Shown piece by piece: positions 3,159 to 34,742 of a stretch of DNA of 38,478 nucleotides (the first letter of the stretch is position 1; each line of letters opens with the position of its first letter). The notes under the pieces are model-generated. The model ran no database searches and was not told where the DNA came from. It worked only from the letters and a program-made list of their open reading frames with translations. This stretch comes from Bacteroidota bacterium. Its GTDB lineage: Bacteria; Bacteroidota; Ignavibacteria; UBA10030; SZUA-254. The translations under genes were made by a program, and so were the position numbers. The stretch is taken from NCBI GenBank assembly GCA_020056225.1, contig JAGVIE010000032.1, positions 1 to 38,478 on the forward strand. The letters are read 5' to 3'.

Positions 3159-6100
3159 TTAATTACCTTCTACAAACACTGCTTTCACTGTTTTATTCCC
3201 GTTCATGATTATCGTTTTCGGGTTCTGTGTTCCGGTTAAATCTATTTCCCAATGATCAAATTCCCACGATATTGGCGCGGGTATGTTTGGTGTTACGCCC
3301 TGCTGCGCGGCAAATTCACTTCCTATACCTGTAAGTGTTACGCTTGTACCTGGCGTATAATTAGTTTGATTAGGAGATTTTAACACCCTGCCGCTTCCAC
3401 TTATCTGGATTGTTAGTGTATAGCTGACTGTAATTGTGAATGCCGATGTACTCGTTCCTGTTCCCGCTGAGTTCGTCACACTGATTGTTCCCGTTGTTGT
3501 TCCGGTTGGTACTGTTGCTGTAATTTGCGTCGGGGAGTTTACTGTATATGATGCCGTTGTGCCATTGAACTTAACAGAGGTTATACCCACAAAGTTCGCT
3601 CCGGTTATCGTTACGCTCGTTCCTACAGGTCCGCTTGACGGTGTAAAACTTGATATTGTCGGTGCGGTAAGTGCAAAGTTGGCAGTCACTGTTTTGTTCG
3701 CGTTCATTGTGATGTTTGCCGGATTGGTCGTACCTGTTAAATCCCCTGTCCAGTTCACAAAATAGTATCCTGTTGCAGGTGTTGCTGTCAACTGCACAGA
3801 AGTACCATAATTATATGTTGATTGATTGGGATTCTTTGTCACCGTACCGTTTGTCGCGTTTACGGTTAAAGTGTAGGTGTTGATTGCAAAATTCGCCATC
3901 ACTGTTTTGTTGGCATTCATCGTGATTGTTACTGGATTCACTGATGACGTGGTATCACCTGTCCAATTGACAAAGTGATAACCCGTTATCGGTGTTGCTG
4001 TTAACTGCACAGAAGTACCATAATTATATGTTGATTGATTGGGATTCTTTGTAACAGTACCGTTAGTCGCGTTTACGGTTAGAGTGTATATGTTGATTGC
4101 GAACTTAGCAGTGATGGTATGATTTACTGTAACGTTATTAAAGGCATAGCTCGCAAGTGCACCCTGGTTTACTCCGTCCACGATTACGCTATCGACATGG
4201 TAACCGGTGTTGGGTGTAATTGTAAACGATTGATTCAAGCCGCAATTGAGATTCACTATACCGCTCGGACTGATCGTCCCGTTCACGCTTGCAGATGCTG
4301 TGATTGTGTTCTGATTGATTGCGTACACCGACCTGATTGTATGATTGGCAATGACATTCGTAAATGTGTAGGATGTAATTGTACCTTGATTCACTCCATC
4401 CACGAGGACGCTATCTACATGGTAGCAACTGTTTGGTGTAATGGTAAATGTTTGACTCCCGCCGTAATTAACCGTGGCAGGAGATGATGGACTGATTGCA
4501 CCGTTTACACCCGCTGTTGGCATGATTGTATATGTGTTGATTGCAAAACTTACCGATATTATGTGTGCTGTTGTTACGTTTGTAAATGTATAGCTTGTCG
4601 TAGAATCTACTTTTATTCCATCTACTATCACGCTATCCACATGGTAACCGGTTGATGGGCTGATAGTAAACGATTGATTCTCTCCGTATGTAACGCTCAC
4701 CTCGCCGCTTGGTACGATGGAGCCATTTGCGCCAGCAGTTGCAGTTATGACAAAAACGTTTTGTATAAACGTTGCCGTAATAGTATTATTACCACTCATG
4801 ACAACATTTACCGGGTTTGCCGTATCGCTCACATCTCCGCTCCAAGCAGAGAATTTGTAACCTGTTCCGGGGGTTGCCGTTAGCGTAACTGTGGTTGCGC
4901 TATCATACATTGCAAACTCCGGTGATTTTGTTACCGTACCATTACCAATTACATTGATGTTGAGGTTGTATTGGGGCGGGGGAATTTGCAAACGCTCCAA
5001 TATATACTGAGCATTGTAATACAAGAACTTCCATCCCTCGATTGTTACAGTTTTATTATCTCCATCCAATGAATCCCGATATTCCTCATCCACTTTTTGC
5101 TGGAAGAGTTTTATTTGGCGGGCGCAATTGTTGGAATCGCAGGCAATAATATAACTTCGCGCAACGGTGAGGTCGCTGTCGAGTAGAGCAATAAAGCTTC
5201 CATCAGATACCCATCCATATGTCCCAACTGTATCTTTAATCTCGATGAGACTATCAACCAGAGTAAGTACTGGTGTAGACGGTGATGGACTAAGCGGGAT
5301 AAACGGATTTAGAAAAAATGACCTTGCAGTGTATTTCACAATTATTGATTGTTCAGTACTTAACCAATCTAATGCAAATTTGACAAAAGATGGAGTTAGG
5401 TATTTTACAGTTGGTTTACCGTATTTAACTATCACTGAATAAGAAGGAAAATAGAGAGCCTTTAAGTACTCATCTGTTTCGCTGGTTATACCCTCTTTAG
5501 ATAACTCTGGTGAATTATCAGGATCGATATCACATAAATCACCGAATATTGACAACTTGATATCTCCTTGTGTTGAGCGAAATCTCGCCTCTAATAGATT
5601 AATTGCCCGCGGTTTATCAAATTCTGCTAATGATCTTGCGAAGGAACCGACGTTACCCACATCGGTTGACAAGCTTATTGTATCTGCTAATAAATTCCCC
5701 GCAGTAATTTTATATTGGCTGTTTTTTCCATACAATGCGAGTATTGGTACAACTAATATGTCCGGCAACCTGTTTCGTATAGCATCTTGTAGTGTATCAA
5801 AATAGTCAAACCTACCTGCTTCAGCTAATTGAAGTATTGCCATAAATTTGATAATACTCGTTTCTTGCATCCTGGCAAGAGTATCCATTCCCTGAATCGC
5901 ATCCTGATAACCGAAATAACCACGAAACAGTTGGTAGTCATAGTATTGAGACTCCCAAGATTTATATAGCGGTTGACCAACCGATGATATAAAAAAGTTA
6001 CTTAGGATAAAATCTTTTTCTGCCTCGCCGCAATTAACGGCAAGAATACGGGCAGCAGCATCCATTTTCATATGTTTATTTATAATGTATCCCCTTAGGT

Positions 6101-22323: not shown

Positions 22324-22349
22324 AGTATATGAGATTTCTCTCATATACT
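22324..22349. repeat. 11-bp inverted repeat next to the tandem array
   Basis: A perfect 11-bp stem, agtatatgaga (22324-22334) with tctcatatact (22339-22349), loop tttc. The right arm is the first part of the 8-bp tandem array, so the array can fold back on this arm. Confidence 0.7.
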
Positions 22350-22435
22350 CATCTACTCATATACTCATCTACTCATATACTCATATACTCATCTACTCAT
22401 CTACTCATTTACTCAGATACTTTTCTACTCAAAGA
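22340..22435. repeat. 8-bp tandem array, 12 units, between rpsI and rpsB
   Basis: From 22340 the sequence reads in exact 8-base steps: ctcatata, ctcatcta, ctcatata, ctcatcta, ctcatata, ctcatata, ctcatcta, ctcatcta, ctcattta, ctcagata, cttttcta, ctcaaaga. The last three units are degenerate and the array abuts the rpsI stop codon at 22436. The rest of the 300-bp gap (22136-22339) holds no gene. Confidence 0.9.
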
Positions 22436-24026: not shown

Positions 24027-25223
24027 TCAAGAACCCTCCCGGATTTTTTTATACTTAAAGACATGATCAAACCTTTCAGCGGCCCACTTGAAATATGTTT
24101 TATGAAATACCTCAATATCAAGTGTTCCATTGTAATTTGTATCTACCTTCCTTTGGAATGACTTGCGGTGCTCAAAGGACGGGATATCGTCATAAAATTG
24201 CTTGAATTGATCTTTCCACAAAACACTGAAATCTCTTCTGTATCCTTCTATTTCTGTTTGTTGTGCTACAGTATCACCAATTATTACTCTCTCCTGACAG
24301 GTTGTCTCATGCATGTCCATTAAAGAAATCGGCGAGTATACCACATCTTTCGTTCCACCTGTATCTTGTACCTTATATAGGCCGAAATCATAGTTTTGTG
24401 AGTACATAATCGTCGCCCGATCAACATAACGACATTCGATTACTATTTTGTATTGAAAACATACCTTGTGTATCCAAATCGTATCATAGACTGTCTTGAT
24501 CACTTTTCGAAGGTATCTCATTTCTGGATCCTCTTCCCTTTTTAGGTACGCTAATTGCCCTTCATCGTTCTTCTCAACATATGCCCCATCAAAGGCATGA
24601 CGTTTCTCGCTCAAATGAAAGAACAATTCAAATAATTCCTTATCCCAAAAAATAATTCTTCTCCCGGCATTGCTCCGTTTAGATTGAGCCTGTTTTCGCT
24701 CATTCAACTTTTGACCGAGAATTATCAGGTACCGTAACCATTGTTCATCAAGAGCTGTGTCCAGAATTAATTCATATTTGTCCTTAGGATCTTTTTTCTC
24801 GGATCCATGTCCATAGTCAAGAGGTGGCATCAAGAAACCAAGGAATTCATCTATTCGAATATTATGATCAATAAAATAATAGAATGTCGGTTGGCGGTTC
24901 TGTGATTGGGATCGGAAACCTCCTGATAGGTCCCTAAAATAATACTGAGTCGGGTCGCAAGCTGGTACATCAGTTGTGCTAATATGCTGAGTTGATGGAT
25001 ATTCTTGAAAACCTCTGCAGGTTAGTATCTTCCGTAGGTTTTCCGCTGGCTTAGTCCAATCTGGCTGAATGGCACCCATCTTGAACGATTCATTGAGATA
25101 CGCGTCGGGCTTAACTATAACGTTCACACCTTTTCGTCTATTCTCTTCCCTAATAAGGTTCTTCAGGTCTTTGTACCATTCAACCGGATTCATATGCAAA
25201 GAAAATATGGAAAAGATTCCCAT
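24027..25223 (-). CDS. Uncharacterised protein, paralogue A (PPLDYGHG family)
   Basis: A 398-residue protein that I do not recognise. It shares ordered blocks with the gene at 25665-26732: FLGFLMPPLDYGHG, LDEQWLRYL, RRIIFWDKELFELFF, VIKTVYDTIWIHKV, YVDRATIMYSQNYDFGLYKV and a YSPISLMDMHE segment. Unlike its paralogue it lacks a clear N-terminal membrane helix, having only the short hydrophobic MGIFSIFSLHM. The gene stands directly downstream (57 bp) of a duplicated fragment of the PLP enzyme's 3' end, just as paralogue B stands directly downstream of the intact enzyme. No catalytic motif is obvious; the conserved Asp/His/Tyr-rich blocks could be a binding site. Confidence 0.7.
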   Translation of the reverse strand: MGIFSIFSLHMNPVEWYKDLKNLIREENRRKGVNVIVKPDAYLNESFKMGAIQPDWTKPAENLRKILTCRGFQEYPSTQHISTTDVPACDPTQYYFRDLSGGFRSQSQNRQPTFYYFIDHNIRIDEFLGFLMPPLDYGHGSEKKDPKDKYELILDTALDEQWLRYLIILGQKLNERKQAQSKRSNAGRRIIFWDKELFELFFHLSEKRHAFDGAYVEKNDEGQLAYLKREEDPEMRYLRKVIKTVYDTIWIHKVCFQYKIVIECRYVDRATIMYSQNYDFGLYKVQDTGGTKDVVYSPISLMDMHETTCQERVIIGDTVAQQTEIEGYRRDFSVLWKDQFKQFYDDIPSFEHRKSFQRKVDTNYNGTLDIEVFHKTYFKWAAERFDHVFKYKKIREGS

Positions 25224-25280: not shown

Positions 25281-25547
25281 TCATATCTTGCTCAAAGCTT
25301 GATCAAAGCCTAAACATAAATCATTCGGCTCTTCTAATACGAAAGAAAGCCTAACCGTCTGCGGACAGAAACCAGATTTACGCTTGTCTTCTTGAGCTAC
25401 ATCTGAGTGTGTGTAGACCCACAGATTTTCTGCTAAAGATTCTACACCACCCAATGAAACCACGACAGTAAATACTTTCAAATTATTTAGTATGGCATAC
25501 GATTCTGTTTTTCTGTCAATGGGGTCAAACGTTATCATTAAATACAT
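25281..25547 (-). pseudogene. Duplicated 3'-end fragment of the Cys/Met PLP enzyme gene
   Basis: The 88-codon frame matches the last 85 residues of the PLP enzyme at 26747-28012 without a gap and with the stop codon in the same place; by eye 56 of 85 residues agree. Shared runs include NLKVFT, SLGGVESLAEN and THSDV. Similarity begins abruptly at the MITFDP segment (25538 here, 27004 in the parent). The fragment lacks the cofactor-binding lysine domain, so it cannot be an enzyme. It has no internal stop, which suggests either a fairly recent origin or some retained use. Confidence 0.85.
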
Positions 25548-25664
25548 CTGGTGTTTTGTGAAAAAATATCTATTTTATATTTTGCAAAATTTATGAAAAA
25601 TTCAACTCATAACTACGAGGTAGTACAATTATCGAAAACGAAACATTTGATAACTCCACACTTG

Positions 25665-26732
25665 CTATACTACTAATTTATCCTTGAATATTTTATCAAG
25701 CTTATCATAATAATAATTATGAAATTCCTTAAATGAATATGCGTGATAGTCTTTCGATTCATCAGTATTATTTCTGAGTACAATTTGATTCAAATATATT
25801 TTCTTAACTTTAGCAAAATCGTCGATAAATTCCTTTACTAATTCAGTTTTACCGAAATAGAATTTTTCCTCTTTCATTACTTTATGTATGTCTTTTGAGT
25901 ATACTGGTACGTAAACTATCGGACGCCACTTACTGATCTGGAAAAAACCAAAATCATAATACTGATTCGACTGAACTGCTGCTTTATCTAAATAATAAGT
26001 CGTAATTAATTTATCACATCCATTTTTAACGTGAAAATCGTGTACCTTCCACGTATCAAGGGCTATTTTGATTATGACTCGTGCCATAGATACCAAATGT
26101 TGAGGTTGCTTTGATTCTTGAAATTGCCATTCAATCATTGCATTGGGAGAAGATGTAGCTTCATTCCGTACAAGCTTCCCAGCCGTTTCAAATACTTCAT
26201 TTTTTAATTTAAGAAATCCATCAAGAAAGAATTTATCAAAAAATACAATTCTTTCATTCTTTATTCCATTCGGGGTTTTCGAATGCTCCAACTCATACTT
26301 GAGACCTAAAAAGTAACGTCTCCATTTTTCGTCTAAATCTTTTGATAAAGTATCATCATGATTCGTTATCCCATGCCCATAATCTAATGGTGGTATCAAA
26401 AAACCTCTAAAACTTTCTATTTTGATACCCTTTCGTTCACCGACTAAAAGATGAAACGATGGCGATAGTTTTGTATTCGAATTAACTTCAACATTATGGT
26501 CTTTTCTCCTTGATAAATATTTACATGGTTTTATCTTTGACTTGGGGTGCCTTTCAAATCCATAATCACGTTGTAGTTCTTTCATGAGTTTCCTTACATC
26601 TCTCGGACGAAGAAAGAAAAAATACATCCGCCGGAAAATATCTGTATGATAATGAAGAGCTATTATAATGCCAAGTATTCCAATAACTCCCCCAAACGGA
26701 ATCATTGATAATATTTTCAAAAAATATTCCAT
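25665..26732 (-). CDS. Uncharacterised membrane-anchored protein, paralogue B (PPLDYGHG family)
   Basis: A 355-residue protein with an N-terminal membrane helix (about residues 9-27, IPFGGVIGILGIIIALHYH) and a cytoplasmic body. It shares FRGFLIPPLDYGHG, LDEKWRRYFLGL, ERIVFFDKFFLDGFL, YYLDKAAVQSNQYYDFGFF and VYVPVYSKDIHK with the gene at 24027-25223 in the same order. I know of no family with this signature, and no function can be assigned. It starts 14 bp after the stop of the Cys/Met PLP enzyme and is probably cotranscribed. After its stop lie 117 bp and then a fragment of that enzyme's 3' end, so it sits between two copies of that sequence. Confidence 0.72.
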   Translation of the reverse strand: MEYFLKILSMIPFGGVIGILGIIIALHYHTDIFRRMYFFFLRPRDVRKLMKELQRDYGFERHPKSKIKPCKYLSRRKDHNVEVNSNTKLSPSFHLLVGERKGIKIESFRGFLIPPLDYGHGITNHDDTLSKDLDEKWRRYFLGLKYELEHSKTPNGIKNERIVFFDKFFLDGFLKLKNEVFETAGKLVRNEATSSPNAMIEWQFQESKQPQHLVSMARVIIKIALDTWKVHDFHVKNGCDKLITTYYLDKAAVQSNQYYDFGFFQISKWRPIVYVPVYSKDIHKVMKEEKFYFGKTELVKEFIDDFAKVKKIYLNQIVLRNNTDESKDYHAYSFKEFHNYYYDKLDKIFKDKLVV

Positions 26733-26746
26733 ATATATTTGTAAAT

Positions 26747-28012
26747 TTAGATTCTTTTCAACGCTTCATCCAAATCAGCACACAAATTATCAGCATCTTC
26801 CAACCCTACCGAGAGACGAATGGTCTCAGGGCTAAATCCGGATTTCAATTTATCTTCGTCTGTTACGTCGGAGTGCGTATGGTACCAAGGATTTTCTGCT
26901 AAAGATTCTACACCACCCAATGAAACCGCCAACGTAAATACCTTCAAATTATCCAATACAGTGTACGATTCCGTTTTTCCACCAACCGGGTCAAACGTTA
27001 TCATCGATCCTGGACCATCACATTGCTTTTTGTAAATCTTCCATTGCTCAGACTTCTTGTCAAGCAGCTCAGGGAACACTACCCTTTTTACTTTAGGATG
27101 TTTCGATAAAAACGTCGCAACTTTCTTCGCATTCTCTTGTGCCTTCATCACACGTAATTCTAAAGTATCAAGCGAACGAAACAGAAGCCAAGCATCAAAT
27201 GCAGAGGGTGTTGGTCCCGTAATAACGCGAAACGAATTGATACGAGCCGCCCGTTCAACATTTCGGTCGATAACAAAACCGGAAATCAAATCTGAATGCC
27301 CGCCGATAGATTTTGTTCCAGAGTACACAATAATATCTGCGCCGTGCTCAAACGGATGTTGCAGAATGGGCGACATAAACGTATTATCCACAACCATAAT
27401 TCCCTGAGTAAGCCGATGAGTTAAGTCCGCAACCGCTTCCATATCCACCATCGCCAAATTCGGATTCGCCGGTGTTTCGATAAATACAATTTTTACTTTG
27501 CCAGCATTCTCTTTCAATACTTTTTCCACTTCATCAACCCGTGTAGCATTGACAGGAATTACGTTAACACCAAGTTTTGCCGGAATTAAGTGCCGGAACA
27601 TATGGTCAGTACCGCCATACACAGGGTAACCAAACACTAACACATCTCCAGCATTGCATTCAGAGAGGACGGTAGTAAAAATAGCAGATAAGCCGCTGGG
27701 GAAGTACACGGTTCTTGCATTTTCACTTCCACGCTCAAAAAATTGTAACCTGTCGTCGAGCATCAAAAAATTCGGATTAGAAACCCGCGTATATATGGGC
27801 CATTCTTCGTCGGGAGCTAATGGGCTTTCAAGTCCATATGCTCTTTTAAACATATGTTCAAGTTTATCTGCATTTTCAGTAGCAAACGTTGAACACGCAA
27901 AAATAGGAGGACGAACGGCTCCCATACTTAAGAAGGGGTCATATCCCGTATGTGCCGCTTTTGTTCTCCAATTCCACCATCGCGGAGGTGTTTTCCAGTA
28001 GGATTTCGACAT
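26747..28012 (-). CDS. Cys/Met metabolism PLP-dependent enzyme (trans-sulfuration family)
   Basis: A 421-residue fold-type I PLP enzyme of the cystathionine gamma-synthase/methionine gamma-lyase family. VYSGTKSIGGHSDLISG holds the PLP lysine, VVDNTFMSPILQHPFEHGAD the PLP-binding Asp, and TRVSNPN the phosphate-contact Arg and Tyr. The C-terminal IRLSVGLEDADNL has the substrate-carboxylate arginine. Whether it makes cystathionine or cleaves methionine cannot be settled by eye. An insertion of about ten residues (GLESPLAPDEEW) ahead of the TRVSNPN motif marks a subfamily. GAAAGGC precedes the ATG. It follows metK by 12 bp, in a methionine cluster with metG. Its last 258 bp are duplicated downstream at 25281-25538. 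Confidence 0.9.
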   Translation of the reverse strand: MSKSYWKTPPRWWNWRTKAAHTGYDPFLSMGAVRPPIFACSTFATENADKLEHMFKRAYGLESPLAPDEEWPIYTRVSNPNFLMLDDRLQFFERGSENARTVYFPSGLSAIFTTVLSECNAGDVLVFGYPVYGGTDHMFRHLIPAKLGVNVIPVNATRVDEVEKVLKENAGKVKIVFIETPANPNLAMVDMEAVADLTHRLTQGIMVVDNTFMSPILQHPFEHGADIIVYSGTKSIGGHSDLISGFVIDRNVERAARINSFRVITGPTPSAFDAWLLFRSLDTLELRVMKAQENAKKVATFLSKHPKVKRVVFPELLDKKSEQWKIYKKQCDGPGSMITFDPVGGKTESYTVLDNLKVFTLAVSLGGVESLAENPWYHTHSDVTDEDKLKSGFSPETIRLSVGLEDADNLCADLDEALKRI

Positions 28013-28024
28013 GATGTATGCCTT

Positions 28025-29164
28025 TCAATTTATTTTAGTTACTTTTTCCCAAGAAAAATTGGGATGTCCATAGAAACCAAACTTTGATGCTTCTTCATAT
28101 GACCAACCCCTTGGTTTTCTCAATTGCAAGTGATCAATCATTTCTGCAACGGTAACGGGAAAATTCTTCAAACACCATTCTTGTGGACTAATCTTTCCAC
28201 GCCAATCAGGTGCGTATACATTCATTAAATCTGGGGCAGGTTGCCCGATGGTAAAAGCAAATTGTACAAGCGCTTCATTCGCTAACTTGTTCGCAACAAT
28301 ACTTTTTGCAATGTGTCGAGCCATCAGCGCAGCAGTGATATCAACTTTTGTCGGGTCTTTACCGCACATCGTGCCTCCGCCAACGGGAACGTCTGGTCCC
28401 ATCTGGTCAACGACGATCTTTCTTCCTACTTCTGCGGAATCAGCCCAAATAGAACCCTTCACAAATTTGCCTGTTCCATTTACTTTCACACTGGGTACGT
28501 TGCCCGCAACTGGTTTGATTACATGTTTTATGATAGCATTTTTGAGTTTATCTAATTTCCACTTTTCATCGTGCTGAATTGCAATGGTTACGTGACTGAT
28601 TTTTCCATCTCTAATGATAACCTGGGTTTTCCCATCTGCGAACAAATCGGGAATAGTTTTTTCCATCGCTACATCAAACAATTTCATTGCAAGTTGTTGT
28701 GCGTACCAAAATGCCGCAGGCATATGTTCACGTTCAGGCGCGTACATTGCATAACCACACATAACACCTTGGTCACCGGCACCCACAACTTTGTTAGAGC
28801 GGTTAACTCCTTGCGCAATATCAGAAGATTGAGTATTAACGATGCTTCCAATTTTAAGAGAAAACTTGGCTCTTGTATAGCCCAATCCCTCAAATACTTC
28901 ACGCACAGTTTTTTCGATGTTTATTTTCCCAACTAAGTCCTTACTAATTTCACCACCGACCGTTACTATGCCATCACACGCAACCATTTCAATTGCAACA
29001 CGGGCATTAGGGTTTATTTTAATTGCCTGGTCAAGAATTCTACATGCGATCTGATCGCACGTTTTATCAGGATGCCCCGGCGTTACAAATTCCGCAGCCG
29101 AGTTCATGCCACCATACAGTGGCCTTCGCATGCTCATGTCTAATGAATCTTTTCCTTTGTTCAT
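28025..29164 (-). CDS. metK: S-adenosylmethionine synthetase, divergent
   Basis: A 379-residue methionine adenosyltransferase that makes SAM from methionine and ATP. Recognisable blocks are GHPDKTCDQIACRILD, GAGDQGVMCGYA, DGKTQVIIRDG, GRKIVVDQMGPDVPVGGG and CGKDPTKVDITAA. Several positions depart from the common bacterial form: the phosphate loop reads GGGTMCGKD instead of GGGAFSGKD and the usual GLTGRKI is AEVGRKI. The key Lys and Asp of the active site (GHPDK, GKDPTKVD) are kept, so it is probably active. GGAGT lies seven bases before the ATG. It is in an operon between metG and the PLP enzyme, consistent with a methionine/SAM unit. Confidence 0.93.
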   Translation of the reverse strand: MNKGKDSLDMSMRRPLYGGMNSAAEFVTPGHPDKTCDQIACRILDQAIKINPNARVAIEMVACDGIVTVGGEISKDLVGKINIEKTVREVFEGLGYTRAKFSLKIGSIVNTQSSDIAQGVNRSNKVVGAGDQGVMCGYAMYAPEREHMPAAFWYAQQLAMKLFDVAMEKTIPDLFADGKTQVIIRDGKISHVTIAIQHDEKWKLDKLKNAIIKHVIKPVAGNVPSVKVNGTGKFVKGSIWADSAEVGRKIVVDQMGPDVPVGGGTMCGKDPTKVDITAALMARHIAKSIVANKLANEALVQFAFTIGQPAPDLMNVYAPDWRGKISPQEWCLKNFPVTVAEMIDHLQLRKPRGWSYEEASKFGFYGHPNFSWEKVTKIN

Positions 29165-29220
29165 AGAAATTACTCCATTCTTTATTTGTTGTTTTTTGTT
29201 ATGAATATTTTATGGATAAA

Positions 29221-31266
29221 CTAAAGTACTTTCCAACCACACTCGGCTTCATTTGCTAACTCCAACAGAATAGCGTTTCCATCTGGTGAAGCCGCAGCAA
29301 GAAGCATTCCTTCACTGACACCTATTCCTTTGAATACTTTCGGCTCAAGGTTAGCCACCACAACGATTTTCTTTCCCTTCAGGGATTCCAAATTCGGGTA
29401 GCTCGTCTTGATCCCTGCAATCAACGTAATGATCTTTCCAATATCCACCTTCAAACGATAGAGGGTTTTGGAATTCGGTATTTCCTCTACTGACAATATC
29501 TGACCTACACATAAGTCTAACTTTGCAAACTCCTCAAATGATACGGTCTTCTGTTGTTTCTCTGCCACAACAGGAGCCACACTCTTTTTCGGTTCAGCCT
29601 TCCTTTGCAATTCTTCACGGCTCGACAAAATCATCTTGTCGATACTTTTCTTCTCTACTCTGCTCATAAGATGCTTAAACTCGTGGATCTTATGGTCATT
29701 GGGAAGTGTTATTTTTGCTTCATCCCATTTTTGATCGGGAATATCAAGCATTGTCTCCACCTCCGCCGCCATCTTCGGGAGAATCGGCTTGAGTATTGTA
29801 CAGATGAATTTGAAGACGTTCAATGAAAACGTACAAGTCTCGTGCGCCTGAGCTGGATTCTCACTGATGATCTTCCAGGGTTCATTGTCGGAAAAATACT
29901 TGTTCGTTCGATCGGAAATTTCAGTGACAGTACGTGTTACTTTTGAAAATTCTCTTTCCATGTAATGGGACTTAATGCTATCCATCTTATCGGTAAATTC
30001 CTTGAAAATAGAAGCGGTCTCGGAATTCATCGAACCAATTTTTCCATGAAAGTTATTTACAAGCATCGTCACTGATCTACTTCCGATATTGACGATGTTG
30101 TTGACTAGATCGGCGTTGACACGAAAACGGAAATCTTCCAAATTCATGTCTATATCATCGGAATTGCTTGATAGCTTTGTTGAATAATAATATCTCAGAT
30201 ATTGTGGGTCTAAGTTGTCCAGATATGTGCGGGCAGTAATGAAGGTCCCGCGTGTTTTGGACATCTTTTCGCCATTAACAGTAAGAAACCCATGTACGTA
30301 TACACTCCGAGGTACGTTATAGTCACTCCCCATCAACATCGCAGGCCAAAAAAGTGTGTGAAAATACACGATGTCTTTACCGATGAAATGATAAATTTCT
30401 GTTTCCGGGTTAAACCAATATTCATCAAAATCTTTTCCACTCACTTTACAGTAATGTTCCGTTGTTGCAACATACCCAATGGGTGCATCCAACCAAACAT
30501 AAAAAAATTTATCCGGCTCGTTGGGAATTCGAAATCCAAAATACGGTGCGTCCCTGCTGATATCCCAATCTTTCAATCCCTTATCCAACCATTCCTTGAT
30601 TGAATTGTATGTTTCAGGTTGAAGAGCACTCCCTCCTGAGAACCATGTCCTCAGTCTATCTTCAAAATCGATGAGACGGAAAAAATAGTGCCTCGATTTT
30701 CGCCGAACCGGCGTCTTCCCACATGTTGCACATCGGGGATCAAAGAGATCGGTTGGATCGTAGTGCATTCCACATACCTCACAAACATCACCGTATTGAT
30801 CTTTCGCCTTGCAATTGCCATTAGGACAAGTTCCCTTGATGAACCGGTCCGAGAGAAACATTGAGTCCTCCTCGCAATAGAACTGCTCAACATCAGCCGT
30901 AAAGATGTGCCCCCCCTTCGTCAATTTCTCAAAGATACGCTTAGAATGCTTTTCATTCTCTGGACTATGCGTTGTATAATAGTGGTCAAAGAGAATATGG
31001 AAATCACCGAAATCCTTCTGATGTTCTATATTGTATCTTGCTATTAGTTCTTCAGGGGTAATGTTGAGACTTCTCGCCTTCAGAAATATTGGAGTTCCGT
31101 GTGTGTCGTCAGCACACATGTAAATCGCATCTTCGCCAATGTGTCTCAAAAATCTTACAAAAATATCAGTCTGAATATACTCGACAAGATGACCGATGTG
31201 TATGCTGCCATTAGCATACGGCAAAGCACTGGTTACTAAAATTTTTCTTCTTCTATTATTCGTCAT
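29221..31266 (-). CDS. metG: Methionyl-tRNA synthetase
   Basis: A 681-residue class I synthetase of the long bacterial type. PYANGSIHIGHLVEYI carries the HIGH motif and GEKMSKTRGTF the KMSKS motif as KMSKT. A four-cysteine-pair zinc segment is present (CPNGNCKAKDQYGDVCEVCG and CATCG). The C-terminal 110 residues (FEEFAKLDLCVGQILSVEEI...) form the EMAP/Trbp111-type tRNA-binding domain. It charges tRNA-Met for initiation and elongation. It is the first gene of the methionine cluster, and a CAT-anticodon tRNA lies 67 bp upstream on the same strand. Confidence 0.97.
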   Translation of the reverse strand: MTNNRRRKILVTSALPYANGSIHIGHLVEYIQTDIFVRFLRHIGEDAIYMCADDTHGTPIFLKARSLNITPEELIARYNIEHQKDFGDFHILFDHYYTTHSPENEKHSKRIFEKLTKGGHIFTADVEQFYCEEDSMFLSDRFIKGTCPNGNCKAKDQYGDVCEVCGMHYDPTDLFDPRCATCGKTPVRRKSRHYFFRLIDFEDRLRTWFSGGSALQPETYNSIKEWLDKGLKDWDISRDAPYFGFRIPNEPDKFFYVWLDAPIGYVATTEHYCKVSGKDFDEYWFNPETEIYHFIGKDIVYFHTLFWPAMLMGSDYNVPRSVYVHGFLTVNGEKMSKTRGTFITARTYLDNLDPQYLRYYYSTKLSSNSDDIDMNLEDFRFRVNADLVNNIVNIGSRSVTMLVNNFHGKIGSMNSETASIFKEFTDKMDSIKSHYMEREFSKVTRTVTEISDRTNKYFSDNEPWKIISENPAQAHETCTFSLNVFKFICTILKPILPKMAAEVETMLDIPDQKWDEAKITLPNDHKIHEFKHLMSRVEKKSIDKMILSSREELQRKAEPKKSVAPVVAEKQQKTVSFEEFAKLDLCVGQILSVEEIPNSKTLYRLKVDIGKIITLIAGIKTSYPNLESLKGKKIVVVANLEPKVFKGIGVSEGMLLAAASPDGNAILLELANEAECGWKVL

Positions 31267-31332
31267 ATTAAATATAGTACAAAAAAGGTATCGTTATCAT
31301 TAAATTAAATTTCTACATAAATTAAATTTCAG

Positions 31333-31406
31333 TAGCGATGAGGGGACTCGAACCCCTAACCGCGCGATTATGAGCCGCGTGCTCTAGCCAGTTGAGCTAC
31401 ATCGCC
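31333..31406 (-). tRNA. tRNA-Met (anticodon CAT)
   Basis: A complete 74-nt cloverleaf on the minus strand. Acceptor GGCGATG pairs with CATCGCT (first pair G-U), the D stem is GCTC/GAGC, the anticodon stem CGCGG/TCGCG with loop CTCATAA, and the T arm AGGGG TTCGAGT CCCCT. The discriminator is A and no CCA is encoded. CAT could also be a lysidine-modified tRNA-Ile; the methionine reading fits the general look and the neighbouring metG but is not proven. Confidence 0.92.
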
Positions 31407-31740: not shown

Positions 31741-32061
31741 TCAACTATCGGTATTCTTATTCAAACTCCGAATCCTCTCAACCCACACTAATCCCTGAAA
31801 CGCTTTATCAGCCGCCTTGCATCCCTTATCTATTCGTAGCTGAACGCTTTGCCGAGAAAAATCAAGTGAGTCTCCTATGTAACCATACGACTGTATCTTT
31901 CTCTGGTATCTCACCATATTATCGTATAAAAAATCTGGATTATGCCAGAACTGATTAATTTCTTTCATATACTTCAACGAGAGAGATTCAGTTTTCTGGA
32001 TATACTCCATCCAATAGGTCCGCAGATAGCAGTTTATTTTATTGATAATGAAAAACTCCAT
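31741..32061 (-). pseudogene. Diverged copy of the patatin gene's 3' end fused to unrelated sequence
   Basis: The 106-codon frame has an N-terminal part I cannot match. It then has IGDSLDFSRQSVQLRIDKG and AADKAFQGLV, which align without a gap to the end of the patatin-like protein (IGDSLDFSQESIQRRIDKG, AADKAFQGFV). The DNA match covers 31790-31896 against 33814-33920, both 107 bp. By eye 25 of the last 36 residues agree. The original stop has been lost, so the frame runs on to 31741. Its first codons overlap the end of the DUF4411 gene by 28 bp. It has no catalytic region and is best read as a remnant. Confidence 0.75.
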
Positions 32062-32558
32062 CCATTATCTTCATAAAATTCAAAAAGATTCATATGCCTT
32101 TCGTTGTAATGCTTGCAAACAGCGGGAATTTTATTTGGACTTGATTCACTCTCAGTGCTAACAACAACAAATTCAGATTCTTTGCCGAATAGACTTGTCT
32201 CTTCCATTAACTCAACAACCATCGCGATAATCCAGGGATCGGCTTGATCTTTCTTACTTCGCGGATCAATTAGATGTGGAAAGAGAGAAAGAATTTCAGG
32301 GACAACTTGCGCTTGTTTTTTTGTGATTGCTTGAAAACAGACTTTATGCTTCGAAACAAGTTTTGCTAAATCATCTTTTGTTCCGGTTGACGGAACAATT
32401 TCATCGTACACAAATTCGTGGGAACGTACCCGGCGTTTCTTAAATAATTCTTCAAGATTGTTCCATAAATCAGGCAGGATTCGTGTAGGATAGTATCGGT
32501 GCATCGTTACCAAAGCGCTCGTATCAAAGCAATAGATATTTTGCGAACTATGCTTCAC
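32034..32558 (-). CDS. DUF4411-family PIN-like protein (probable toxin)
   Basis: A 174-residue protein of the DUF4411 type, a PIN-domain-like family. Acidic residues typical of the PIN metal site are visible: Asp12 in YCFDTSALV, Asp52/Glu53 in VYDEIV, Asp in KKDQADPWIIA near residue 106, and a late VSTESES segment. PIN-type toxins are Mg-dependent RNases. The GTG start at 32558 overlaps the end of the upstream HTH-ImmA/IrrE gene by 11 bp, so the two are translationally coupled, the layout of a toxin-antitoxin module. The toxin role is inference from family and context. Confidence 0.82.
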   Translation of the reverse strand: MKHSSQNIYCFDTSALVTMHRYYPTRILPDLWNNLEELFKKRRVRSHEFVYDEIVPSTGTKDDLAKLVSKHKVCFQAITKKQAQVVPEILSLFPHLIDPRSKKDQADPWIIAMVVELMEETSLFGKESEFVVVSTESESSPNKIPAVCKHYNERHMNLFEFYEDNGWSFSLSIK

Positions 32559-33651
32559 GCATTACCCGGCTGATATTCAGATCGAGCATTCCGGACGCTT
32601 GTGTGTAAGATATTCTATTTTGATTCAGAGCATCTAATACAAGAGTGTAAAATGTCTCTCCTCTGCTCGCCCTGCTTTTTACTTCAGGCTTAATTATTAT
32701 TTTCTTAGGTAGAATTGAGGGATATGATGCTTTTATTTGATCCAGAAGTGTAAAGAATTTTACGGAACTGACTTCCTTTTCTTCTTTTAATCTACGCAGA
32801 TATGCTTCCGGACTAATTTTAAACTTGTTGGCGAATGTCTGAATTTCTTTAAGATCGTCTGTGGATTGAAGGGTATTCTTTGGAACAAGGAAATTTCCTG
32901 CAATCGAATTGCATTCCCATTCTTCATTTTGGTTTTCCCTAATATCATCCCACAAACAAATGCCGGAAGTATGCTTTATGATATGAGTCAACTCGTGAAA
33001 GATTGTAAAAATACGACCGGTGTAAGAATGATTGGAATTAACAATGATTGCATAAGGATACACATCTGTAAAACAAAAACCCTGCACTTCTTTTAGCGGC
33101 ATCGGAAATTGGAAAATCAAAATTCCCAATTGGTTTTCTACTGCACTTCTCCACGTACGATACGCCTCACTCGGGGCTTTCCAATGGAATTGTTCTTCGA
33201 TACTTATGTTTAATTTCTCACGAAGCCATCCTGCAATCACATCGGATTTTTTATTGTTGGCGTCAACTTCAGCTATCCAACTGTAGCGATCTTTCCAGTA
33301 TCCTTCTCCTTTTATTTCAAGTGCGGTTTGACGAAAATAGGTAACATCGCGCATTACTAAAAGAACTTTTTTGGAGAGTTTACTCTTTGCAGTTATGACA
33401 TTCCGAAAATCTTTCGGCTTGGTGATTTTCTTTGGGACTTCAGGGAGGAAAAACACAGCTAATTGTCTTTTATAATAATTGGCAATATTTTTTAATTTCC
33501 CAAGAGGTACTTTTTCACCCTTCTGCTCCCACGTATTATATTTTTCAGTAGGGACTTCTACTTTTGCGGCAATTTCAGAAGGATCGTAACCGGCTTCTTC
33601 TCTTGCCCATTGTAACACGCTTGGGTTAATATTTACTTCTATGCGACTCAT
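32548..33651 (-). CDS. XRE-type HTH regulator with ImmA/IrrE metallopeptidase domain
   Basis: A 367-residue protein. The N-terminal 60 residues form an XRE-like helix-turn-helix (VLQWAREEAGYDPSEIAAKVEVPTEKYNTWEQ). The middle (about 130-250) is an ImmA/IrrE-type zinc peptidase with IFTIFHELTHIIKHTSG near residue 218, a clear HExxH. Such proteins often regulate toxin-antitoxin genes or cleave repressors. I chose the ATG at 33651; a GTG at 33678 would put the operator-like palindrome inside the gene. Its 3' end overlaps the DUF4411 gene by 11 bp. It probably represses its own promoter through the inverted repeat at 33677-33695 and acts as the antitoxin. Confidence 0.85.
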   Translation of the reverse strand: MSRIEVNINPSVLQWAREEAGYDPSEIAAKVEVPTEKYNTWEQKGEKVPLGKLKNIANYYKRQLAVFFLPEVPKKITKPKDFRNVITAKSKLSKKVLLVMRDVTYFRQTALEIKGEGYWKDRYSWIAEVDANNKKSDVIAGWLREKLNISIEEQFHWKAPSEAYRTWRSAVENQLGILIFQFPMPLKEVQGFCFTDVYPYAIIVNSNHSYTGRIFTIFHELTHIIKHTSGICLWDDIRENQNEEWECNSIAGNFLVPKNTLQSTDDLKEIQTFANKFKISPEAYLRRLKEEKEVSSVKFFTLLDQIKASYPSILPKKIIIKPEVKSRASRGETFYTLVLDALNQNRISYTQASGMLDLNISRVMREA

Positions 33652-33676
33652 TACAATTCGATTAATATTTCTATTC

Positions 33677-33695
33677 ACCCACTTTTCTAGTGGGT
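33677..33695. promoter_or_regulatory. Operator-like inverted repeat upstream of the HTH-ImmA/IrrE gene
   Basis: A perfect 7-bp palindrome with a 5-bp spacer, acccact-N5-agtgggt, centred about 35 bp before the ATG at 33651. Its place and the adjacent XRE regulator suggest an autoregulatory operator. The repeat also forms a small hairpin, so a transcript role is possible. Confidence 0.5.
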
Positions 33696-33800: not shown

Positions 33801-34742
33801 CTACGGACACACAAATCCCTGAAACGCTTTGTCTGCCGCGTTGTATCCTTTATCAATTCGTCGTTGAATGCTTTCCTGCGAGAAATCAAGTGAATCTCCA
33901 ATATCACCATCCGGCTGTATGATTATCGCGTTAAACGCCTTGTAAGGTTTGCCGTTTCCTTTCATTAAAGTGACCTGCTTTCTTTCCGCTTGTTGCACCA
34001 GGTCGTTGATTCGCAAGAACTCTTCTATATCCGAATTGAAAATTTCATTGATCGTGATATCGGTAAGAGACCGCTTCGATATTTCTAGAACATTATCTGC
34101 TGCGGATGAACTTGGCGATACATTCTTGGGACTGCAGTTGATAATGATAATGTGTGAAGGATCGTCACCGAGTACATCACCTAAAGGACTCACATTGCGC
34201 AGCCCGCCGTCAACCACTCCAACAATTTGCTCACCGCTCTTCAAAGTAATTCTCGGGATCGGTTCCCAAACAATCGGCATCACCGTCGATGCTAATACCG
34301 CGTTCTGGAAATCAACATCGCTGTTGAACTGTATCGGCCTCAATCCCCAATATAAACCGCTTTTCAACGAAACGATACCGAAGCGGAAATCATATTTCAC
34401 ATCATTCAGGTGATAAAGGTTCTGAACTTTTTTTCTCAACGGTTCGTTACTGTAAAACGATTTCGCTCCGCCAAACAGAATTCGCCAAGCAATCCGAAAA
34501 TAAGAATACTTTGTATATACACCATCATCCGAGATTGTTCCCCACATATCTTTTAAGGTCTGGTACTTCCCCATTGCCATCATCCCTCCGTTCAGCGTGC
34601 CAACCGAGACGCCGGCAATAATATCATATTCCAGATTTGGACATCTCTTCTTCAAATTTTCTTCAATGTATTTTATTGCGCCAAATTGAAACGCTCCTTT
34701 GGCTCCCCCTCCGCTCAATACCAACGCCACTTTTCTTCCCAT
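33801..34742 (-). CDS. Patatin-like phospholipase
   Basis: A 313-residue lipid acyl hydrolase. LVLSGGGAKGAFQFGA forms the oxyanion-hole glycine loop (residues 9-16), IIAGVSVGTLNGG holds the nucleophile Ser46 in GxSxG, and GVVDGGLRNVSP has the catalytic Asp near residue 178. The Ser-Asp dyad is intact, so it should cleave membrane or stored lipids. It is soluble with no signal peptide. AAAGGAAG lies seven bases before the ATG. The gene stands downstream of a four-gene operon after a 161-bp gap. Its last 107 bp are echoed at 31790-31896, beyond the toxin-antitoxin-type pair. Patatin effectors occur in anti-phage systems such as CBASS, but no nucleotide cyclase is here, so that role is not supported. 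Confidence 0.9.
   Translation of the reverse strand: MGRKVALVLSGGGAKGAFQFGAIKYIEENLKKRCPNLEYDIIAGVSVGTLNGGMMAMGKYQTLKDMWGTISDDGVYTKYSYFRIAWRILFGGAKSFYSNEPLRKKVQNLYHLNDVKYDFRFGIVSLKSGLYWGLRPIQFNSDVDFQNAVLASTVMPIVWEPIPRITLKSGEQIVGVVDGGLRNVSPLGDVLGDDPSHIIIINCSPKNVSPSSSAADNVLEISKRSLTDITINEIFNSDIEEFLRINDLVQQAERKQVTLMKGNGKPYKAFNAIIIQPDGDIGDSLDFSQESIQRRIDKGYNAADKAFQGFVCP

Follow-up and report, generated by a model that had tools for sequence, protein, structure and literature searches.

Displaced 3' ends of a PLP enzyme gene and other genes in a Bacteroidota genome: probable traces of additive recombination with diverged DNA

How does a gene come to have a second 3' end lying beyond another gene? 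The question is raised by a contig of a Bacteroidota bacterium (GenBank JAGVIE010000032.1, 38,478 bp; the whole stretch is called the window here). In it, a full-length gene for a Cys/Met-metabolism PLP enzyme is followed on the same strand by gene B, by a second copy of the enzyme's last 85 codons and by gene A (Table 1).

Anatomy of the PLP locus

The preliminary description of this DNA had reported a gapless 258-bp duplicate of the enzyme 3' end with aligned stop codons and about two-thirds protein identity, a similarity that stops sharply at one edge, and gene B between the copies with gene A on the far side. All of this held. Over the 85 codons the proximal and distal copies agree at 182 of 255 nt (71%) and 56 of 85 residues, without gaps; neither has an in-frame stop, and the stop codons (TAA versus TGA) lie in register. 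A repeat search returned a single gapless pair (25292-25538 / 26758-27004, 72% identity, spacing 1,466 bp), which scored E = 4.7e-40 when the window was compared with itself by blastn. The distal fragment by itself matches Pfam Cys_Met_Meta_PP (3.9e-14); for the complete enzyme gene the top NCBIfam model is the cystathionine gamma-synthase family PRK07049, with a score below the model cut-off. Similarity ends at the stop codon on the 3' side and abruptly on the 5' side, where 17 exact bases are followed by none. Inside the pair lies a 38-nt exact run, comprising 12 codons with no silent difference, which exceeds the length expected given the synonymous divergence around it (p = 0.0002, 5,000 shuffles). 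Between this run and the edge of the remnant, each of four 15-nt blocks is identical at 10 or 11 positions.

TABLE 1 Features of the PLP and patatin loci, in window positions
Feature	Position	Strand	Evidence or value
PLP enzyme gene (Cys/Met metabolism), full length, 421 aa	26747..28012	-	PF01053, E 2.4e-106
Proximal 3'-end copy (last 85 codons + stop)	26747..27004	-	repeat search, alignment
17-nt exact match at 5' similarity edge; partner 25522-25538	26988..27004	-	
38-nt exact run, candidate crossover or gene-conversion tract; partner 25424-25461	26890..26927	-	
Gene B, 355 aa; putative inserted cargo	25665..26732	-	G+C 0.317 vs window 0.405
126-bp spacer, gene B to remnant; non-homologous edge at 25538/25539	25539..25664	.	
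Distal displaced 3'-end copy (remnant); open frame 25281-25547	25281..25538	-	56/85 aa vs proximal copy
Distal-copy partner of 38-nt run	25424..25461	-	
Gene A, 398 aa, paralogue of B; probably older resident downstream gene	24027..25223	-	
Patatin-like gene; proximal copy is its 3' part, 33808-33927	33801..34742	-	PF01734, E 1.2e-20
Cargo: ImmA/IrrE (Peptidase_M78) gene	32548..33678	-	PF06114, E 1.8e-17
Cargo: DUF4411 gene	32034..32558	-	PF14367, E 7.4e-21
Displaced patatin 3' end	31784..31903	-	27/37 aa; 5/5/13 differences by codon position

The ORFs of at least 60 aa in the 1,466-bp unit are gene B and two short antisense ORFs; B is the sole gene-sized ORF, and the unit contains no integrase gene. 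A and B are paralogous (26% identity over 260 aa, E = 2e-22) and much more diverged than the enzyme ends. The G+C of gene A (0.392) is close to that of the remnant (0.388). Searches of both genes against Pfam, NCBIfam and PADLOC gave nothing above the cut-offs. No relatives of B were found in phage records or in 394 other genomes of the phylum sample, none of A in plasmids or, at E 0.001, in 59 other relatives (three short matches had values of 0.05 to 0.35), and none of either gene in viral contigs or among solved structures. An A/B profile run against 391 class genomes, their own included, gave one weak outside match (G392, E 0.005, profile positions 47-113). An AlphaFold2 model of B built on a two-row alignment had a mean pLDDT of 31.8 and was useless for the fold. 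The PLP, metK and metG genes here look foreign to the bacterial family. Enzyme relatives at least 60% identical were absent from plasmids, and metK of the PLP block is less than 60% identical to its best phage matches. Among the genomes searched, none had PLP-A alone or PLP-B alone.

Coding-type divergence and recurrence at other genes

The two enzyme 3' ends differ at 22, 10 and 41 sites in codon positions 1, 2 and 3, a departure from an even spread (p = 4e-5). Dating by synonymous change, as the preliminary description had proposed, gave a dS of 1.5 by NG86 and 7.3 (saturated) by maximum likelihood, with a dN of 0.21. Compared with the KSB1 gene, the full gene has 20/13/48 differences by codon position and the fragment 25/15/49, and the divergence between the two copies almost equals that between the enzyme and this KSB1 relative. 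The differences are mostly silent and the fragment is nearly as intact as the full gene, which indicates that each copy spent most of its history within a functional gene. Since the fragment's distance to the KSB1 gene hardly exceeds that of the full gene, it would have become inert only late.

The same layout, which we call the scar, recurs within the window, where a patatin-like gene is followed by an ImmA/DUF4411 pair and then by a diverged patatin 3' end (120 nt, 81% identical). The ImmA/IrrE gene has a weak HTH match (HTH_31, E 0.007, below cut-off), and the DUF4411 product is presumably PIN-like.

In the same genome (G000), two displaced serS 3' ends lie downstream of serS; the 4,112-bp gap between serS and an ABC transporter reads DUF559 gene, serS 3' end, ParE pair, serS 3' end, TIR gene, AMP-ligase gene. 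Of the 14 family loci fetched, 9 have the same transporter downstream of serS. In a genome of another genus (G001) the gap measures 965 bp and is filled by a DUF2283-type pair, made up of an 81-aa ORF and the DUF2283 gene itself, with a serS 3' end behind it; in G010 it is an empty site of 94 bp. The cargo families are ParE_toxin, TIR, DUF559 and DUF2283, and a scan of the nine serS-cargo ORFs turned up no integrase; the scar also occurs beside toxin-antitoxin and defence genes. The distal serS end of G001 matches serS of G000 at 131 of 150 positions and the proximal end at 113 of 150 (the phylogeny of these 150-nt ends is unresolved), and the two may come from different lineages. Displaced serS ends in two genera, differing cargo and an empty site point to repeated additive recombination.

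The edges at serS vary. Counted back from the last base of the stop codon, the remnants start at 150, 63 and about 81 nt, and with such differing starting points there is no single att core; nor do the 3' edges of the serS units share a common exact core. In one serS pair, the edge of similarity is marked by 23 consecutive identical nt. In G000 the segment preceding the ABC transporter likewise occurs twice, on either side of the AMP-ligase gene; the scar is therefore not a feature of gene ends alone. Over six 3'-end pairs (four genes, two genera; three are serS pairs, two of those from one genome) the changes sum to 42/20/108 by codon position. A significantly long exact run occurs in one of the six, the PLP pair.

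Additive recombination and its rivals

We think it fairly probable that the old enzyme 3' end was displaced by additive recombination, the incoming DNA being orthologous but diverged. The starting chromosome would have carried the PLP enzyme gene and then gene A. Another lineage would have supplied DNA in which gene B lay behind a diverged 3' end of the orthologous gene, and this DNA would have been added, not swapped in. Of its two junctions, one would have relied on homology within the enzyme gene, with the 38-nt identical run as a possible site, and the other, non-homologous, would coincide with the remnant's 5' edge. The product would be the observed order of complete enzyme gene, B, displaced 3' end and A. 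A unit of 1,466 bp would suit a ligated linear fragment or a circle that entered by a single crossover; alternatively, a linear fragment may have recombined homologously at one end and been joined illegitimately at its other end, the combination proposed for T6SS arrays of Vibrio cholerae, as far as the account in PMC5361080 goes. With homologous exchange at the 38-nt run and the joining at the remnant's edge, no differences would be expected in the intervening stretch; it is diverged, which a circular donor would explain more readily than a simple linear one. Gene conversion could also be the origin of the run. The observations are the anatomy, the coding-type divergence of both copies, the recurrence with other cargo and the empty serS site; the addition event at the PLP locus, together with the direction of transfer, the native copy, the crossover point and A as the earlier neighbour, is what we infer.

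The preliminary description had offered two options, of which an insertion supplying a new 3' end fits and a tandem duplication of the unit fits badly. A recent tandem duplication sits poorly with the sequences. An old one within a single lineage, of the enzyme gene plus its downstream gene with later loss of the second enzyme's first 336 codons, is the best of the rivals, if still unlikely: it would explain why A and B are paralogous and hold the same relative position, and coding-type divergence at both enzyme ends is as it would predict. However, A and B are 26% identical whereas the enzyme ends keep 66% (56/85), so a single duplicated unit would need very uneven rates, and the serS parallels would require long-lived tandem serS genes, which we judge implausible. 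Two complete tandem PLP genes in relatives, named beforehand as the observation that would speak for a decayed second gene, were not seen; the comparison comprises one close relative, the only one found, with a single PLP copy and different neighbours.

When the e14 prophage enters icd of E. coli, the incoming version replaces the 3' end of the gene and the old end is left on the far side. The PLP locus shares that arrangement, and a tiny site-specific element carrying its own 3' end and moved in trans might also explain the sharp edges (the 17 exact bases at PLP, the 23-nt run at serS) and the stacking of several units at one gene end. We nevertheless give it little credence: unlike e14, the PLP unit has no integrase of its own, though one might act in trans, and serS shows no fixed junction, its remnants starting at three different points without a shared exact core, and a non-genic flank is duplicated likewise.

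Near-identity of the flanking copies is a defining feature of long target duplication. Here 71% identity and coding-type differences make the copies resemble diverged orthologues, not a duplicated target. Insertion with such duplication has been described for restriction-modification genes by Nobusato et al. 2000, in the citations given by PMC1643837 and PMC3031569; as those citing passages have it, selfish or defence genes are bounded by long direct host repeats, as in our case, and the layout matches that of the Helicobacter genes in PMC1643837. An insertion of B that copied the enzyme's own 3' end, with the distal copy decaying since, commands even less of our belief. A neutral copy should change evenly over codon positions, unlike the spread found, and should gain stops and indels (118 of 1,000 simulated neutral copies with 73 changes stayed stop-free, indels ignored), and it should not lie barely further than the full gene from the KSB1 gene. 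Least plausible of all is that the 85 codons form a small functional gene, encoding for instance a separate C-terminal polypeptide: the piece has an ATG start, an open frame and coding-type change, but that last signature can come from a full-gene past, the remnant of a second PLP gene (L053) has an in-frame stop, and we know of no role for an isolated C-terminal part of a PLP enzyme.

Additive recombination has partial precedents. The hallmark of displacement arrays, a displaced anchor 3' end downstream of the new module, is found here at PLP, patatin and serS. In the V. cholerae T6SS effector-immunity arrays, by the portion of PMC5361080 that concerns them, a module likewise arrives at a conserved gene, the old 3' end is shifted downstream and rounds stack; unlike there, the anchors here are metabolic or housekeeping genes (PLP enzyme, serS), the cargo is separate and the host gene stays whole. 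Remnants of displaced genes also pile up 5' to 3' after insertions in Acinetobacter orphan cdiA-CT/cdiI arrays, to the extent covered by PMC6336857, but there the 3' end varies, whereas here it is conserved and the gene behind it varies. In integrase-less hotspots, as PMC5635113 outlines them, content is swapped by double recombination in flanking core genes; the serS-ABC interval similarly has changing cargo and no integrase in the nine cargo ORFs examined, but the exchange here would be additive, leaving partial copies. On our best reading, displacement arrays having been proposed for T6SS and CDI, their occurrence at housekeeping genes is what differs.

A seemingly half-duplicated gene would then be a readable record of the stacking of genes without mobility of their own, and a displaced gene end can date and orient an addition. 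If this is general, recently added defence genes could be looked for by way of displaced ends, which would also help account for how integrase-less hotspots grow, beyond exchanging content. A and B are marked as a gene family deserving tests. More speculatively, and in our view improbably, housekeeping gene ends in this bacterial family may be docking sites for very small integrase-less units (each joining a host-gene 3' end to one or two genes of toxin-antitoxin, defence or uncharacterised type) that circulate as short circles, enter by single crossover and stack like integron cassettes, with A and B a fast-diversifying undescribed family using this route.

Frequency of displaced gene ends

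Self-comparison yielded 87 pairs for this genome, spread over 43 sequences, and 23 for relatives, spread over 10, the majority inside large repetitive proteins or paralogues; both window pairs and the L053 and L091 pairs were chosen by eye, as cases in which a gene terminates with one copy while its partner is not within a comparable gene. A gene-end scan covered 609 ORFs of this genome and 281 of relatives, with full paralogues removed by hand, and showed no significant excess of displaced 3' ends over the controls. It missed L053, whose edge lies past the 20-nt limit. In this genome, 3' ends downstream gave 7 rows, reduced to 5 by paralogue removal, at four loci (PLP, patatin, serS and L088). 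The L088 copy, at a distance of only 60 bp, may simply be a tandem repeat. The controls went from 4 rows to 2 (5' ends upstream), 3 to 2 (3' ends upstream) and 6 to 3 (5' ends downstream). Among relatives, 7 downstream rows were reduced to 5 (L043, L049 twice, L100, which is serS of G001, and L110), against 1, 3 and 1 rows for the control combinations. A strict 60-nt scan, which missed the PLP pair, gave 4 downstream rows in this genome (patatin, L062, serS twice) versus 1 row upstream, none on the opposite strand and 2 among 5' ends, and in relatives 2 downstream versus 1, 0 and 0.

The PLP locus and its repeated enzyme end

The Cys/Met PLP enzyme lies in a run of genes that leads from tRNA-Met(CAT) to rplM; the names metG and rplM are our presumption from the sequences.

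Features of the PLP locus, in reading order
Feature	Coordinates	Strand	Position
tRNA-Met(CAT)	31406-31332	minus	first in reading order
metG	31266-29221	minus	after tRNA-Met(CAT)
metK	29164-28025	minus	after metG
Cys/Met PLP enzyme	28012-26747	minus	after metK
gene B	26732-25665	minus	after PLP enzyme
PLP enzyme fragment	25538-25281; open frame from 25547	minus	after gene B
gene A	25223-24027	minus	after fragment
119-aa ORF, no assigned role	23984-23625	minus	after gene A; then rplM

The preliminary description reported a gapless repeat of the last 85 codons of the enzyme, about two thirds identical as protein. The window DNA bears this out: the enzyme end and the fragment agree at 182 of 255 nucleotides and 56 of 85 residues, with no gaps (E = 4.7e-40). 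Genes A and B are homologues with 26% identity across 260 aa. Neither has an NCBIfam match (E up to 0.1) or a PADLOC match (E up to 1), and searches of Pfam and PHROGs gave weak matches alone (E 0.09 to 0.16). The G+C content of gene B (0.317), set against 0.392 for gene A and 0.388 for the fragment, weakly suggests that B is the newcomer. Farther along, an array of an 8-bp unit (CTCATATA/CTCATCTA) occupies 22324-22435, between the rpsI and rpsB genes.

The two enzyme ends differ at 22, 10 and 41 sites in codon positions 1, 2 and 3, respectively, with dN of 0.21. Dating the copies by synonymous change, as had been proposed, gives a dS of 1.5 by NG86, saturated by maximum likelihood. A neutral copy fits these data badly: the changes are spread unevenly over codon positions (p = 4e-5), and of 1,000 simulated neutral copies carrying 73 changes, 118 stayed stop-free, indels left uncounted. 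In a scan of the species-genome collection, which detects close relatives only, the only close relative of the enzyme comes from a candidate division KSB1 MAG (L033; 70% across the whole protein), and the remaining three matches are at 46% or less. Compared with the KSB1 gene, the end of the full gene shows 20/13/48 differences by codon position and 64 of 85 identical residues, and the fragment 25/15/49 and 56 of 85. Because this excess of change is only small, we infer that the fragment was in a working gene for nearly all the time since its split from the other copy.

The methionine block

The order rplM, rpsI, rpsB is the same in all 10 family loci, whose retrieved DNA ahead of rplM (6 to 14 kb) lacks metG, metK, the PLP enzyme, gene A, gene B and the 119-aa ORF alike. 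The enzyme, metK and metG also look foreign to the family. Among 59 other relatives, 58 match the enzyme, the best by E-value being 43% identical; no match at E 1e-110 occurs in the 394 other genomes of the phylum sample. Both metK and metG of the window are second copies, 41% identical to the other metK of the genome (at C51) and 34% identical to the other metG (at C27). For these reasons, the stretch from metG through the 119-aa ORF has the look of an acquired block. On the KSB1 contig the enzyme occurs once, with, by eye, a sugar kinase-like gene before it and a sensor kinase-like gene behind it on the opposite strand; no A- or B-like ORF adjoins it there. The interval 26747-31406, in which tRNA-Met(CAT), the second metG, the second metK and the PLP enzyme stand in a row, is foreign-looking and may represent an alternative methionine set or one for resistance.

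Displaced ends elsewhere in the genome and family

The same genome holds other displaced ends. A patatin-like gene of the window (34742-33801) precedes an ImmA/IrrE gene and a DUF4411 gene, behind which stands a 120-nt patatin 3' piece (31784-31903); the piece is 81% identical to the patatin 3' part (33808-33927), the match ending about two codons short of the patatin stop. The patatin-like protein (33801-34742) resembles CBASS phospholipase effectors, with a score below the curated cut-off. On contig 45 (L053:15736-18799), behind a second PLP enzyme come a cytochrome-like gene and a decayed 83-nt enzyme 3' piece, 80% identical and with an in-frame stop. On contig 34, serS leads into a DUF559 gene; next come a 63-nt serS 3' end, an antitoxin-like ORF and its ParE toxin neighbor, and then a second serS 3' end (about 81 nt) ahead of a pentapeptide-TIR gene. 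Summed over six 3'-end pairs, three of them serS pairs, the differences by codon position are 42/20/108, third positions making up more than half in every pair. In a sample of the genome (43 sequences, 800,725 bases; 609 ORFs scanned), displaced 3' ends lay downstream at 4 loci, no clear excess over the controls, which gave 2, 2 and 3 rows. A locus on contig 26 (L083:132-3183) that is Rhs-like by eye is followed by partial copies of its core, one of 96 nt at 83% and one of 165 nt at 61%, the classic kind of displaced 3' module. At L064:16924-18663 and L082:13810-14758, a diverged 5' gene part lies upstream of a gene, mirroring the 3' remnants.

A second serS scar is found in G001, a family genome of a different genus, which reads serS, an 81-aa ORF, a DUF2283 gene, a serS 3' end (49 codons plus stop) and an ABC transporter gene. 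The 81-aa ORF has no Pfam match; we take it to be DUF4258-like. When the other 13 of the 15 family genomes were searched with serS, none showed a second serS 3' end. Of 14 family loci retrieved, 9 have the ABC transporter behind serS on the retrieved DNA, which is short for some of the remaining loci. The gap between the two genes is 94 bp in G010, 279 in G012, 319 in G006, 599 in G002, 965 in G001, 1,623 in G008 (a 191-aa ORF and a DNA methyltransferase), 2,866 in G004 (a ThaI-type restriction enzyme and a methyltransferase-like ORF), 3,222 in G005 (a single reversed 930-aa ORF) and 4,112 in G000, the genome of the window; an empty site therefore exists, in one genome. In the family, toxin-antitoxin and restriction genes gather at a hotspot on the 3' side of serS (L091:4127-7673 on contig 34, L100:710-4719, L101, L102, L104).

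The distal serS end of G001 matches G000 serS at 131 of 150 positions; the end of the complete G001 serS gene matches G000 serS less closely, at 113 of 150. Over the serS body, G001 and G000 are 0.76 identical with no visible break; the ABC gene behind is 80% identical and the gene before 70%. Either the insert brought the distal end or serS arrived whole; a tree of the 150 nt gives no resolution. The serS remnants start 150, 63 and about 81 nt ahead of the end of the stop codon, a variation that speaks against a single att core. In G000, copies of a 55-nt stretch flank the AMP-ligase gene (L091:2401-2455, 4063-4117), and the counterpart of this stretch is single in G001, before the ABC gene (L100, about 2803-2848); a non-genic flank was thus duplicated in the same way.

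Proposed additive recombination and its precedents

The genomes with G labels are drafts, and assembly error is possible at any single scar; as a general cause it is unlikely, since the scars repeat in two genera. For T6SS effector-immunity arrays (PMC5361080) and for cdi orphans (PMC6336857), incoming modules are proposed to displace older gene parts through illegitimate joining. Restriction-modification genes flanked by long direct host-sequence repeats are described as insertion with long target duplication (cited in PMC1643837, PMC3031569), and integrase-free hotspots that change via recombination in flanking core genes are also on record (PMC5635113). Displacement of this general kind has precedents, and its molecular means are ordinary. 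A literature search, thin on subscription papers, gave no account of displaced housekeeping-gene ends as scars of added toxin-antitoxin or defence genes.

For the PLP layout we favor an additive recombination of two diverged orthologous loci. In this reading, an enzyme 3' end plus gene B would have come in, with the first junction made by homology within the enzyme gene and the second at the edge at 25538/25539. Two routes are reported for E. coli: integration of linear DNA that recombines homologously at one end and joins illegitimately at the other, and circularization followed by a single crossover (PMC3240628). The PLP repeat contains a 38-nt identical run (12 codons, p = 0.0002) near silent sites that approach saturation; none of the other five 3'-end pairs has a significantly long run (p 0.17 to 0.93). 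This run may be the crossover point or a later gene conversion. The stretch from the remnant edge to the run is diverged, unlike what a simple linear donor with a crossover at the run would leave and as a ligated circle predicts.
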